NCBI RefSeq assembly: GCF_024757985.1
Contig: NZ_CP103289.1
Span: 248,001-312,000, forward strand
Reading direction: 5' to 3'
Length of the DNA stretch: 64,000 nucleotides
Origin: Cellulomonas sp. NS3
GTDB lineage: Bacteria; Actinomycetota; Actinomycetes; Actinomycetales; Cellulomonadaceae
The notes beneath the pieces are model-generated. The model saw nothing but the letters and a program-made list of their open reading frames with translations, had not been told where the DNA came from and did no database searches. The translations under genes were made by a program, and so were the position numbers. This document shows, piece after piece, positions 59,843-63,965 of the stretch. The stretch's first letter is position 1. Each line of letters opens with the position of its first letter.

Positions 59843-59858
59843 TGTGACTTGAGTCACA
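59843..59858. promoter_or_regulatory. Perfect CRP-type site TGTGACTTGAGTCACA
   Basis: TGTGA-N6-TCACA with perfect symmetry matches the consensus of CRP and the actinobacterial GlxR/Crp cAMP-binding regulators. It lies in the 510-bp gap between the phosphotransferase gene and the riboswitch ORF, ~150 nt upstream of the riboswitch promoter candidate. The remainder of the gap upstream of 59840 shows nothing else I can name. Confidence 0.7.
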
Positions 59859-59969
59859 TCATACGACGACTCCACGACCGGGCGACATCGTTGTCCCACG
59901 TCACGCAGGCGCGCCGTGCGCCGAGCGGGTGAAACGGGGCTATGTCCGGCTTCGAGTGGCACGGAGGCC

Positions 59970-59998
59970 TTCCACGCGCTCTCATAGTCCTCTAATGT
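59970..59998 (+). promoter_or_regulatory. Promoter candidate for the riboswitch RNA
   Basis: TTCCAC (59970-59975) and TAATGT (59993-59998) lie 17 nt apart. The -10 would start transcription near 60005, at the 5' edge of the aptamer. The -35 match is weak; the -10 stands in an AT-rich patch. Confidence 0.4.
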
Positions 59999-60007
59999 CT
60001 CCTCTGT

Positions 60008-60084
60008 CAGCGAACAGGCAAACCCTCCGCAAGGAGGGGACGCAAAGCCACGGGACCCACGCAGGTCAGCCGGGCTACCGAACG
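60008..60084 (+). promoter_or_regulatory. Cyclic-di-GMP-I (GEMM-I) riboswitch
   Basis: The aptamer core is complete: AGGCAAACC, the first stem CCCTCC-GCAA-GGAGGG with a GNRA tetraloop, the conserved GGGACGCAAAGCCACGGG, the second stem, and the 3' element AGCCGGGCTACCG. All parts match the GEMM-I consensus in order and spacing. It ends ~16 nt before ATG 60100, so c-di-GMP binding probably controls translation or termination of the small ORF. Confidence 0.9.
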
Positions 60085-60099
60085 AAATGGATGTGCCTC

Positions 60100-60267
60100 A
60101 TGGACCAGCGTGGATTCTTCGGCCAGTACGAGCCCGCCGAGACCGACTCGCCCCGCCCCGACCGCGACACCGCGCCCGCCGCGCGTCTCGCCTCGTGGGC
60201 CCGCATGGCCGCCGTCCGCTCCGCGCGTCACGACCTCGTGCCGACGCAGCGCGAGTACGCCGCCTGA
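60100..60267 (+). CDS. 55-residue protein under c-di-GMP riboswitch control
   Basis: ATG 60100 (or 60091, adding MCL) opens a 55-residue frame: MDQRGFFGQYEPAETDSPRP, then an Arg/Ala-rich helix (LASWARMAAVRSARHD) and VPTQREYAA. It has no signal peptide, membrane helix or known domain. It is the only ORF between the riboswitch and a perfect 13-bp terminator hairpin 24 nt after its stop, so it is the evident target. It could be a small regulator or an adaptor; nothing in the sequence decides this. Confidence 0.7.
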   Translation: MDQRGFFGQYEPAETDSPRPDRDTAPAARLASWARMAAVRSARHDLVPTQREYAA

Positions 60268-60291
60268 GCGCACCCCGCTCCTCTCCCGACC

Positions 60292-60321
60292 CAGGGCAGC
60301 ACGCACCCGCGTGCTGCCCTG
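60292..60321 (+). terminator. Perfect 13-bp terminator hairpin
   Basis: CAGGGCAGCACGC, loop ACCC and GCGTGCTGCCCTG form a perfect stem directly after the small riboswitch-controlled ORF, closing it as a single-gene transcript. Confidence 0.8.
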
Positions 60322-60406: not shown

Positions 60407-60931
60407 ATGACGCCGACGACCGACCCCACGCCGACCGACCGGGCGCCCACCCGGGCCGCGCACGCCGCCGGTGCGTGCGGCTCCGCGTGCCACGGGCTCA
60501 CGCGCCGCAGCGTGCTGCGCGGTGCGGGCGCCGCCTCGCTCGGGGCGGCCGCGCTCGTGCTGGCGGCCTGCGCGGGCCCGTCCGACGCCGACGGGGCTCC
60601 CGCGGGCGCCGAGGGCGGGGCGTCGGCCGGCGGCGGCTCGGGCGTCCTCGCGAAGCTGGCGGACGTCCCCGTCGGTGGTGCGCTCGCGGTGACGGGGCCC
60701 GACGACGTGCCGCTGCTCCTCCTGCAGCCGACGGCGGGCACCGTGGTCGCGCTGGTCGCGGTGTGCACCCACCAGGGCTGCACGGTCGTGGCCGACGGCG
60801 ACGCGCTGGTCTGCCCGTGCCACGGCTCGGTGTTCTCGCCGGAGGACGGCTCGGTGATCGTGGGTCCGGCGGAGGAGCCGCTCGCGGCGTTCCCGGTCGA
60901 GCTCGTGGACGGCGGGGTCGTCGCCGCCTGA
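60407..60931 (+). CDS. Rieske [2Fe-2S] lipoprotein with Tat signal
   Basis: 174 residues. A twin-arginine signal (TRRSVLRGAGAASLGAAALV) ends in lipobox LAAC, then a Ser/Gly/Ala linker. The Rieske cluster motifs are CTHQGCTV and CPCHGSVF with GSVIVGPAEEPL after, so both His-Cys pairs are present. It is a stand-alone small Rieske protein like those of actinobacterial electron transfer, with no oxygenase or cytochrome gene nearby. GAAGGAG precedes ATG 60407. Confidence 0.92.
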   Translation: MTPTTDPTPTDRAPTRAAHAAGACGSACHGLTRRSVLRGAGAASLGAAALVLAACAGPSDADGAPAGAEGGASAGGGSGVLAKLADVPVGGALAVTGPDDVPLLLLQPTAGTVVALVAVCTHQGCTVVADGDALVCPCHGSVFSPEDGSVIVGPAEEPLAAFPVELVDGGVVAA

Positions 60932-61457: not shown

Positions 61458-63965
61458 CTAGAGCTCGCCCTTGCGCTGCAGGTACCGCATCGCCGCCCAG
61501 CCGATCGGGATCCGCAGCCAGAACGTCAGCGCGCGGAACAGGAACGCCACGGAGACCGCGACACCGGCGTTGATGCCGACGGAGGTCAGGCCCGCGGACA
61601 GCGCGAGCTCGACCGTGCCGAGGCCGCCCGGGGTCGGCACGAGGGAGCCCGCGGTGTTCCCGGCGAGGTAGAGCAGCGCGACCTGCACGAGCGAGACGTG
61701 CTGCCCGAAGGCCTGCAGCGCCGCGTCGAACGCGAGCACGTAGCCCATGGTCATGAGCACGTTCCCGCCGAACGCGAGCGCGAGGCGGCGCGGCTGCCCG
61801 ACGACCTCGATGAGCCGCGGCCACGTCTGGCGCAGCATCGGCAGCGTCTTCGAGGCGACCCACGTGCGCACCGCCGGCACGAGCAGCGTGGACGCGACGA
61901 GCAACGCGAGGATGCCGATCGCGAGGAACATCTGCGGCGACGCGGGCAGCGGCGACGCCTGCCGGGTGCCCGACGCGATCGACAGCCCGAGCAGCAGCAG
62001 GATCGTCACGACGAACTGCGAGACCTGCACGAGCGCCACGGTCGCGGCCGCCAGTCCCGTCGAGACCCCGCGCCGGGTGAGCATCCGCAGGTTGAGCGCC
62101 GCGGGGCCGATCCCGGCGGGGGCGGCGAGCGCGACGAACGTCGCCGCGGTCTGCACGAGGGTCGCGCGCCACACCGGCAGGCGCACGGGCGAGAACGCGA
62201 CGAACGCGAGGGCCGCGCCGACGAGGGTCACCAGGCCGAGGCCGAACGACACGAGGCTCCAGCGCCAGTCGCTCTCGCCGACCGCGGTCATGATCTCGTC
62301 GACGTTGATCGTGGTCAGGACGACGACGACGGCGACCGTCGTCAGGAAGATCGTCAGGAGGGTCCGGGCGCCGAACCGCACGAGCTGCTCGGGGTGCACG
62401 TCCGCCTCGGGCAGCCGCTGCACGAGCGCGGACCGCAGCTCGGCGAGGACCTCCTTGTGCGCACGCATCTCGTCGCGCGTGCGCTGGGGGAGCGCGATGG
62501 TCTGGAGCAGCGGGCCGACCGCGGCGATGTCCTCGTCGGGCAGCACGCGCGACGCCGACTCCAGGGCGCGCGTGGCACCGACCCGCAGCGCGAGCAGGGC
62601 CACGAGCTGCGTGACGTCCATGCGGCGGGCGAGATCGGAGGACGCGACGTCGCCCTGCTCCCAGCCCACGAGCCACACGACGGGCCGCCCGACGACGACG
62701 TCGACGAGCACGACGTCGCTGGTCAGCGCGCGGTGCGCGATCCCGGCGCCGTGCGCGAGCCGCAGCTGCGCCCAGACCTCCTCGAGCATCTCGTCGGTGA
62801 TCTCCTCGGGGTCGAGGTCCGCGAGCGGGCGCGCGGACCCGGGCGCCTCCTGGACGAGCAGCATCGAGTCGTCGGCCTCGGAGACGCTCAGCAGGCGCGG
62901 GGTCCGGACGCCGGCGGCACGGGCGGCGTAGGCGAGCAGCGCGGCGCGCTCGGCGGCCTGGCGCAGGGACACGACGGAGCGCCCGTCGAGCCCGCGCAGC
63001 CGCAGCGAGCGCCACAGCCGGGACAGCATGCCGACGACCTGGCGGTCGCCGTCGAGCACGACGACGTCGAGGTCCTGCCCGTCGGCCGTCGTGAGGTCGT
63101 AGACGCGGTGGTCGGAGTACCGGGCGATCGCGCGGGTGGTCGTGGTCGGCGCGTCGGGCGTGGCCGGGCCGTCGGCGTGCTCCGCGTGCGCGTCGGGCAC
63201 GCGGGCGATCCGGACCGGTTCGAAGCCCGCGCGTCGCACGCCGTCGACGAGGCTCACGCCGTACGCGCGCTCGGAGCGCACCCCGGACAGGTAGCGGACG
63301 CCGAGCCCGGCGACGCGCCCGACGAGCAGCGCGACGGCGAGGCCCGGCAGCGAGACCTGCGCGGTGATGAGCACGACGCCGACCCAGACCCAGAGCAGGT
63401 TCCACGACCAGGCGACGGTGCGGCGCCGGGTCCGCGGGCCCGACGTCGTGAGCAGGCCCGCGATGAGCGCCACGTACGGCGGGACGGTGAGCACCCAGTC
63501 GCCCCGGAGGCGGACCGACATCCCGGTGACGAGCTCCTCGGGCCCGAACGTGTGCACGGCCCACGCGATGACCATGCAGACGAGCAGGCCGCTGAGCGCG
63601 GCGGCGAGCGCCTCCAGCAGCTGGCGCCCGAGCCGCCGGATCGCGAGCTCGGTGAGCACGGCGACGGGTGCGAGCACCACGACGACGAGCTCGAGCACCG
63701 TCACGGGGAAGACGAGGATCTGGCCGAGCAGCGAGGAGAAGCCGCGCACGTCCTCGGCGACGCCCGTCGTGGTGTTCTGCGCGTAGGTCGCGGCGACGAG
63801 GACGAGGGCGATCCCGAGCGTCCCGACGACCACGCCGAGCAGGTCGCTCGGGTGGTGCACGCGGACCGCGGGGGTGTCGACGATCTCGACGCCCGCGAGG
63901 CGGTCGGCGTCGTCGTCGGGCGACGGGCCGAGACCGAGTCGCGCGGTCGTCGGCAGCTCGGGCAT
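61458..63965 (-). CDS. Flippase-like (LPG synthase TM) protein with pseudokinase domain
   Basis: 835 residues. Six N-terminal helices (~45-220) are followed by a cytosolic kinase-like domain (~250-470), then an eight-helix UPF0104/LPG-synthase-TM module (~530-830; APAGIGPAALNLRMLTRRGV and GNTAGSLVPTPGGLGTVELA). In the kinase part the HRD loop reads AHRALTSDVVLVD (H411, D to A) and the metal DFG reads VGWEQG, so it is likely a pseudokinase. Lipid flipping or lipid sensing is the family role. ATG 63965 lies 7 nt after a TACACT box. Confidence 0.85.
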   Translation of the reverse strand: MPELPTTARLGLGPSPDDDADRLAGVEIVDTPAVRVHHPSDLLGVVVGTLGIALVLVAATYAQNTTTGVAEDVRGFSSLLGQILVFPVTVLELVVVVLAPVAVLTELAIRRLGRQLLEALAAALSGLLVCMVIAWAVHTFGPEELVTGMSVRLRGDWVLTVPPYVALIAGLLTTSGPRTRRRTVAWSWNLLWVWVGVVLITAQVSLPGLAVALLVGRVAGLGVRYLSGVRSERAYGVSLVDGVRRAGFEPVRIARVPDAHAEHADGPATPDAPTTTTRAIARYSDHRVYDLTTADGQDLDVVVLDGDRQVVGMLSRLWRSLRLRGLDGRSVVSLRQAAERAALLAYAARAAGVRTPRLLSVSEADDSMLLVQEAPGSARPLADLDPEEITDEMLEEVWAQLRLAHGAGIAHRALTSDVVLVDVVVGRPVVWLVGWEQGDVASSDLARRMDVTQLVALLALRVGATRALESASRVLPDEDIAAVGPLLQTIALPQRTRDEMRAHKEVLAELRSALVQRLPEADVHPEQLVRFGARTLLTIFLTTVAVVVVLTTINVDEIMTAVGESDWRWSLVSFGLGLVTLVGAALAFVAFSPVRLPVWRATLVQTAATFVALAAPAGIGPAALNLRMLTRRGVSTGLAAATVALVQVSQFVVTILLLLGLSIASGTRQASPLPASPQMFLAIGILALLVASTLLVPAVRTWVASKTLPMLRQTWPRLIEVVGQPRRLALAFGGNVLMTMGYVLAFDAALQAFGQHVSLVQVALLYLAGNTAGSLVPTPGGLGTVELALSAGLTSVGINAGVAVSVAFLFRALTFWLRIPIGWAAMRYLQRKGEL

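Follow-up and report, generated by a model that had tools for sequence, protein, structure and literature searches.

What does a c-di-GMP-I riboswitch control when the gene directly behind it encodes a protein of only 55 residues? This question is raised by a short transcription unit in the window, the whole stretch of 64,000 nucleotides of Cellulomonas DNA that was analysed. A sequence-only reading of this DNA had taken the small ORF, from its position, as a stand-alone target of the aptamer. According to the present analysis, the riboswitch very probably controls one stand-alone small-protein gene, most likely at translation start. Computation found a canonical pocket in the aptamer, a coupling of aptamer to ORF that is kept among relatives, a promoter element that is likewise conserved, and a hairpin at the end of the unit. 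The features of the locus were as follows.

59927..59948, plus strand: conserved promoter element GGGTGAAA-N8-TGTCCG, recurring in relatives; a possible regulator site
59970..59998, plus strand: putative sigma-70-like promoter TTCCAC - 17 nt - TAATGT, assigned by eye; TANNNT is found here in relatives
60009..60083, plus strand: c-di-GMP-I riboswitch aptamer, from the RF03167 and RF01051 scores and the pocket bases G20, A47 and C92
60100..60267, plus strand: gene of the 55-aa small protein, the aptamer target, from family conservation behind the aptamer, dN/dS and AlphaFold2
60292..60321, plus strand: perfect hairpin of 13 bp at the end of the transcription unit (4-nt loop, no T run)
61458..63965, minus strand: gene of an LPG-synthase-TM protein (PF03706, E 1.4e-29), a convergent neighbour that marks the locus and is not part of the switch

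The covariance search with the GEMM-I model RF01051, proposed earlier as a check, gave a strong score of 68.1 bits at 60009-60083 (gathering score 35), which confirmed the claim of a full GEMM-I aptamer. The same positions matched RF03167 (c-di-GMP-I-GGC) in Rfam with 60.5 bits (E 8.6e-12, gathering score 59). This was the sole gathering-level Rfam match among those listed for the window, a same-clan match that overlaps it at the aptamer site being omitted. The class named by the sequence-only reading therefore stood; the top Rfam label was that of the GGC variant, yet the base in the window was the canonical A. The GGC variant is believed to have been described by Weinberg and colleagues in PNAS in 2017.

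The available passages of PMC3764141 give G20, A47, A48 and C92 as the key contact bases of c-di-GMP-I aptamers, and their numbering was used for the window and for 90 unique leaders of relatives. In the window aptamer, G20, A47 and C92, which contact c-di-GMP, were all present; among the unique leaders, A47 was found in 90/90, G20 in 86/90 and C92 in 89/90. The G of the GGC consensus GACGC(G)AAGC is replaced by A in the window and in all 90 unique leaders; the G of RF03167 at A47 (consensus GACGCGAAGC) was absent from the window and from 90/90 unique leaders. In our reading, the base at this position is what names the GGC variant. Because the window pocket is canonical, with A in place of the GGC-consensus G, ordinary c-di-GMP binding is expected, and c-di-GMP is the predicted ligand of the window aptamer. 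A GGC-type ligand was rejected on the pocket base.

A ligand other than c-di-GMP, through a variant specificity such as that of the GGC class or of c-AMP-GMP, is unlikely. The window has G20, and A47 instead of the G of the GGC consensus, RF01051 scored higher in bits than RF03167, and 38 GGDEF domain matches were found in the window's genome; these points weigh against the GGC variant as the top Rfam label and against the A at position 20 in 4/90 unique leaders, which we take to be the base change of the c-AMP-GMP class. Aptamers with A20 were seen ahead of the small ORF at loci L063, L064, L106 and L120.

The small ORF starts with ATG at 60100 and ends with TGA at 60265-60267; its 55 codons begin 16 nt after the end of the Rfam match, in agreement with the distance claimed earlier. 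Its Shine-Dalgarno sequence was weak (GGATGTG), compared with GACAGGA or GAAGGA in many relatives. The AlphaFold2 model (mean pLDDT 67), with helices at 24-43 and 48-54, predicted a protein with a disordered N-terminus, a first helix and a short second helix, and the tail consists of a C-terminal helix and LVPTQRE. No match at E 1 or better was found in Pfam, NCBIfam, PHROGs and PADLOC (4, 5, 4 and 2 members scanned, respectively) or among PDB sequences (profile of 47 rows), and a fold search of the PDB with this model, whose pLDDT was only 67, gave no match. The aptamer class is already known, and the small-protein family is without a match in the five libraries searched. The HTH_BldC model NF033787 did not match the small ORF (0 NCBIfam families), and a truncated BldC was rejected for the lack of this HTH match.

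A profile of 16 relatives was searched, by protein alone, against 221 genomes of the family Cellulomonadaceae; the 16 starting sequences had been drawn from aptamer loci. Relatives of the small protein were found at 98 places in 96/221 genomes, 94 genomes having one and two having two. The aptamer was directly ahead of the ORF at all 98 places (94 by script and four, L121, L136, L152 and L166, by eye), as checked in the fetched DNA and not in the genome-wide match list, and the gap from aptamer to ATG was 12-19 nt at the 94 scripted places. The 98 places gave 86 unique proteins, which together with four weaker ones from fetched aptamer loci made 90 unique proteins of 38-63 aa. Two low-scoring ORFs at L032 and L047, which were not the aptamer's ORF, were kept out of the counts. 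The check on conservation behind the same aptamer in this family thus came out positive in 96/221 genomes, and the earlier claim that the ORF is the target was borne out; the analysis supports the ORF as a conserved target of the aptamer. Since the pair of aptamer and tiny protein is kept in about a hundred relatives, the protein looks like a real and unexplained output of the signal.

In an order-level sample of 396 genomes, 18 genomes had a match, 15 of them in the same family; the three matches outside it were short fragments inside long frames and were taken as chance. In the scan of named genomes, 15 of the 17 loci obtained carried Cellulomonas in their title, and the remaining two came from other metagenome bins. 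One locus, L212, has the aptamer and the small ORF under the title of a Proteobacteria metagenome bin, a title that is probably wrong. As far as the search went, Cellulomonas and its close relatives are the bacteria that retain the small-protein family.

Substitution analysis of 26 disjoint pairs gave a pooled pS of 0.243, a pN of 0.058 and a dN/dS of 0.20, the pairs having been chosen at a protein identity of at least 75%, which lowers the estimate; pN exceeded pS in one of the 26 pairs. Computation thus showed that the small ORF is under purifying selection. That the transcript is a c-di-GMP-sensing small RNA, made of aptamer and hairpin with the ORF incidental, would suit its shortness, the aptamer at its start, the strong hairpin at its end and the weak Shine-Dalgarno sequence in the window. 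This explanation is very improbable, given the conservation at the protein level in a protein-only search, the pooled dN/dS and the clear Shine-Dalgarno sequences of many relatives. An incidental ORF was rejected on the protein-only conservation and the dN/dS.

The LPG-synthase-TM relative was present in the fetched flank of 72/98 loci, in every case with the orientation opposite to that of the small ORF, and in 0/18 other aptamer loci. These 72 loci are the same genomic place and not repeated insertions. Downstream of the small ORF in the window, a Rieske protein gene begins at 60407; Rieske relatives occurred at only three distinct places (the window, L063 and L064), the fetched flanks being short and the rest duplicates. 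A second copy of the family (48 aa, tail LPTP) was found behind an aptamer, with a FliA-type sigma gene following after a few nt, at L192:1006-2119 and L193 in the closely related genomes G161 and G143; this sigma gene had regions 2, 3 and 4 in Pfam. The second copy directly ahead of a sigma gene in two genomes, and the Rieske relatives near the small ORF in L063 and L064, are what one would see if the ORF encoded a leader peptide or opened an operon, with the real target (in the window, Rieske at 60407) downstream. We consider this quite improbable: the 13-bp hairpin parts the two genes in the window, the neighbour of 72/98 loci is convergent, and Rieske relatives were confined to three distinct places within the short flanks. 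The absence of a conserved co-directional gene behind the small ORF, together with purifying selection, fits a dedicated stand-alone target and supports the earlier claim of one.

The aptamer was present in 116/221 genomes, and all 96 ORF-bearing genomes fall within these 116. The other 20 of the 116 had no family match at the search threshold, and four of these 20 (G101, G107, G134 and G146) carry weaker members. One genome of the window's own genus, G002 (about 50 contigs), had four aptamers and no family match. In the fetched exceptions, the aptamers precede bldC, secreted-looking proteins or short proteins of other sequence, and some of these unlike short proteins end in VPxQ-like tails. 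Dissimilar short proteins with VPAQVR-like tails were seen behind the aptamer at L032, L047, L059, L060, L177 and L179; the VPAQVR-tailed short proteins are possibly a wider class.

The window's genome has five such aptamers, and downstream of them lie the small ORF, bldC and three long ORFs, which probably encode secreted proteins. Behind the aptamers at L001, L003 and L005 of this genome, the long ORFs start with GTG and have secretion-like N-termini. The protein of bldC, behind aptamer L004, matched NF033787 at 103.1 bits. Other genes thus share this aptamer class with the small ORF. Both bldC and the small ORF were behind an aptamer in 6/7 genomes of the window's own genus, and in five of those six they were the only two aptamer matches. 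A weak match to the aptamer (46.4 bits) at L069 lies directly ahead of an ORF whose start, by its motif, resembles that of a putative EAL phosphodiesterase.

Upstream of the aptamer, the word GGGTGA[A/T] was found 150-195 nt before the ATG in 86/90 unique relatives, and at 165-178 nt in 79. The consensus of the promoter element was CCGAnCGGGTGAAAT, its TGTCCG portion being far less conserved, and the composite pattern occurred once in the 4.78-Mb genome. In leaders of bldC, the same word was often found reversed, at distances that varied. About 150 nt upstream of the aptamer, at 59843-59858, there is a palindrome, TGTGA-CTTGAG-TCACA, presumably of the CRP type by its consensus. The consensus promoter scan did not call the putative sigma-70-like promoter at 59970..59998. 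The available passages of PMC5859096 give the BldC half-site as AATTXXXX(C), and two words on the opposite strand of the promoter element, GGGTGAAAT and GTCCGAATT, resemble two such half-sites, which suggests the element as a candidate BldC site.

A short mRNA would begin with the riboswitch, which may sense c-di-GMP, and the small ORF would be controlled at its ribosome site. Control of translation start is favoured because the 12-19 nt between aptamer and ATG are too short for a separate terminator. The window leader folded no better than its shuffles (z -0.57), and with the P3 stem forced in 79 leaders, accessibility of the ribosome site went up in 13 and down in 5, with no consistent change. 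Downstream of the ORF, hairpins of at least 9 pairs were found in 50/90 unique relatives, against 54/450 single-base shuffles. The earlier reading had named a perfect 13-bp terminator; the hairpin is there, at 60292-60321, and lacks a U-tract. Since the hairpin has no T run and the terminator scan at this place was empty, a role in termination is something that we infer.

Examination of the C-terminal tails showed PxQ near the C-terminus, after the predicted helix, in 90/90 unique small proteins, with [VIL]PxQ in 88. The motif [VIL]P.[QP] was found by eye in 25/25 unique BldC tails (22 with PxQ and three with PxP). Among FliA-type tails it was found in 34/34 unique ones of aptamer-bearing genera, 12 of them with PxQ, and in 2/11 of other genera; the grouping by genus is our own, and the counts cover the 62 FliA loci fetched, of which 54 yielded a tail (45 unique), the remaining FliA matches being outside them. 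Shuffled FliA-type tails gave about 0.8 for aptamer-bearing and 0.3 for other genera. As a crude control, [VIL]P.[QP] was found in the last 45 residues of 8/176 long window frames, and PxQ in none. These counts concern a motif of only 3-4 residues in orthologue tails that share ancestry. The [VIL]Px[QP] C-terminal motif is common to FliA-type sigma tails (L214-L274) and BldC in aptamer-bearing genera.

The similar Px[Q/P] tails on the small protein, BldC and FliA would make the small protein a regulatory peptide that binds their partner; its disordered N-terminus would be followed by a helix and by a partner-binding PxQ tail. The shared tails suggest that BldC, sigma factor and peptide have a partner in common; that the PxQ tail of the peptide binds a partner also bound by BldC and FliA-type tails is offered tentatively. 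A rather more doubtful extension is that the small protein acts as a c-di-GMP-dosed decoy, whose free helix-PxQ tails would compete for the partner shared by BldC and FliA in a coupled circuit. The coupling could come from an aptamer of the same class ahead of bldC and from the BldC-like half-sites in the promoter. If so, the riboswitch pair would join c-di-GMP to the choice of transcription programme.

The likeness of the FliA tails, and the sigma gene next to the second copy in G161 and G143, could also be read as signs of a flagellar or sigma-specific protein (an anti-sigma factor or a mimic of the FliA tail) of motile species only. This reading is improbable, as 21/96 ORF-bearing genomes had no FliA match at E 1e-45, one of them, G041, being 89% complete. 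A strictly flagellar role was rejected on these 21 genomes.

No description of the small protein was found in the titles, abstracts and passages covered, including those of PMC12452182, PMC4744006, PMC3764141, PMC9943018, PMC7266159, PMC5859096 and PMC12564702; the partial literature covered for bldC, riboswitch and c-di-GMP together likewise gave nothing. With the stand-alone small-protein gene as target, c-di-GMP-I riboswitches gain a conserved output, a tiny protein that matched no family in the libraries searched. Within the window's genus, the small ORF and bldC are retained as the common core of aptamer targets, and the meaning of c-di-GMP in Cellulomonas and relatives becomes directly testable.

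Compared with known systems, the window aptamer has the same sequence, fold and pocket bases G20, A47 and C92 as c-di-GMP-I (GEMM-I, RF01051); it differs in that its output is a very small stand-alone protein for which the libraries searched gave no match, and in that it leaves almost no space for a separate expression platform. It exceeds the gathering score of c-di-GMP-I-GGC (RF03167) by 1.5 bits, but has A where the consensus GACGC(G)AAGC of that model has G. The small protein and the MerR-like regulator BldC (NF033787) both have genes preceded by this class of aptamer, in the same genomes, and both have a C-terminal Px[QP] tail, but the small protein has neither the winged helix-turn-helix nor a match to the model. 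In contrast to FliA/WhiG-type sigma factors, it is without sigma domains, the resemblance being a short motif only, and most of their tails read PxP and not PxQ; the likeness, in aptamer-bearing genera, is a YFAAVAARA-like helix followed by [VIL]Px[QP].
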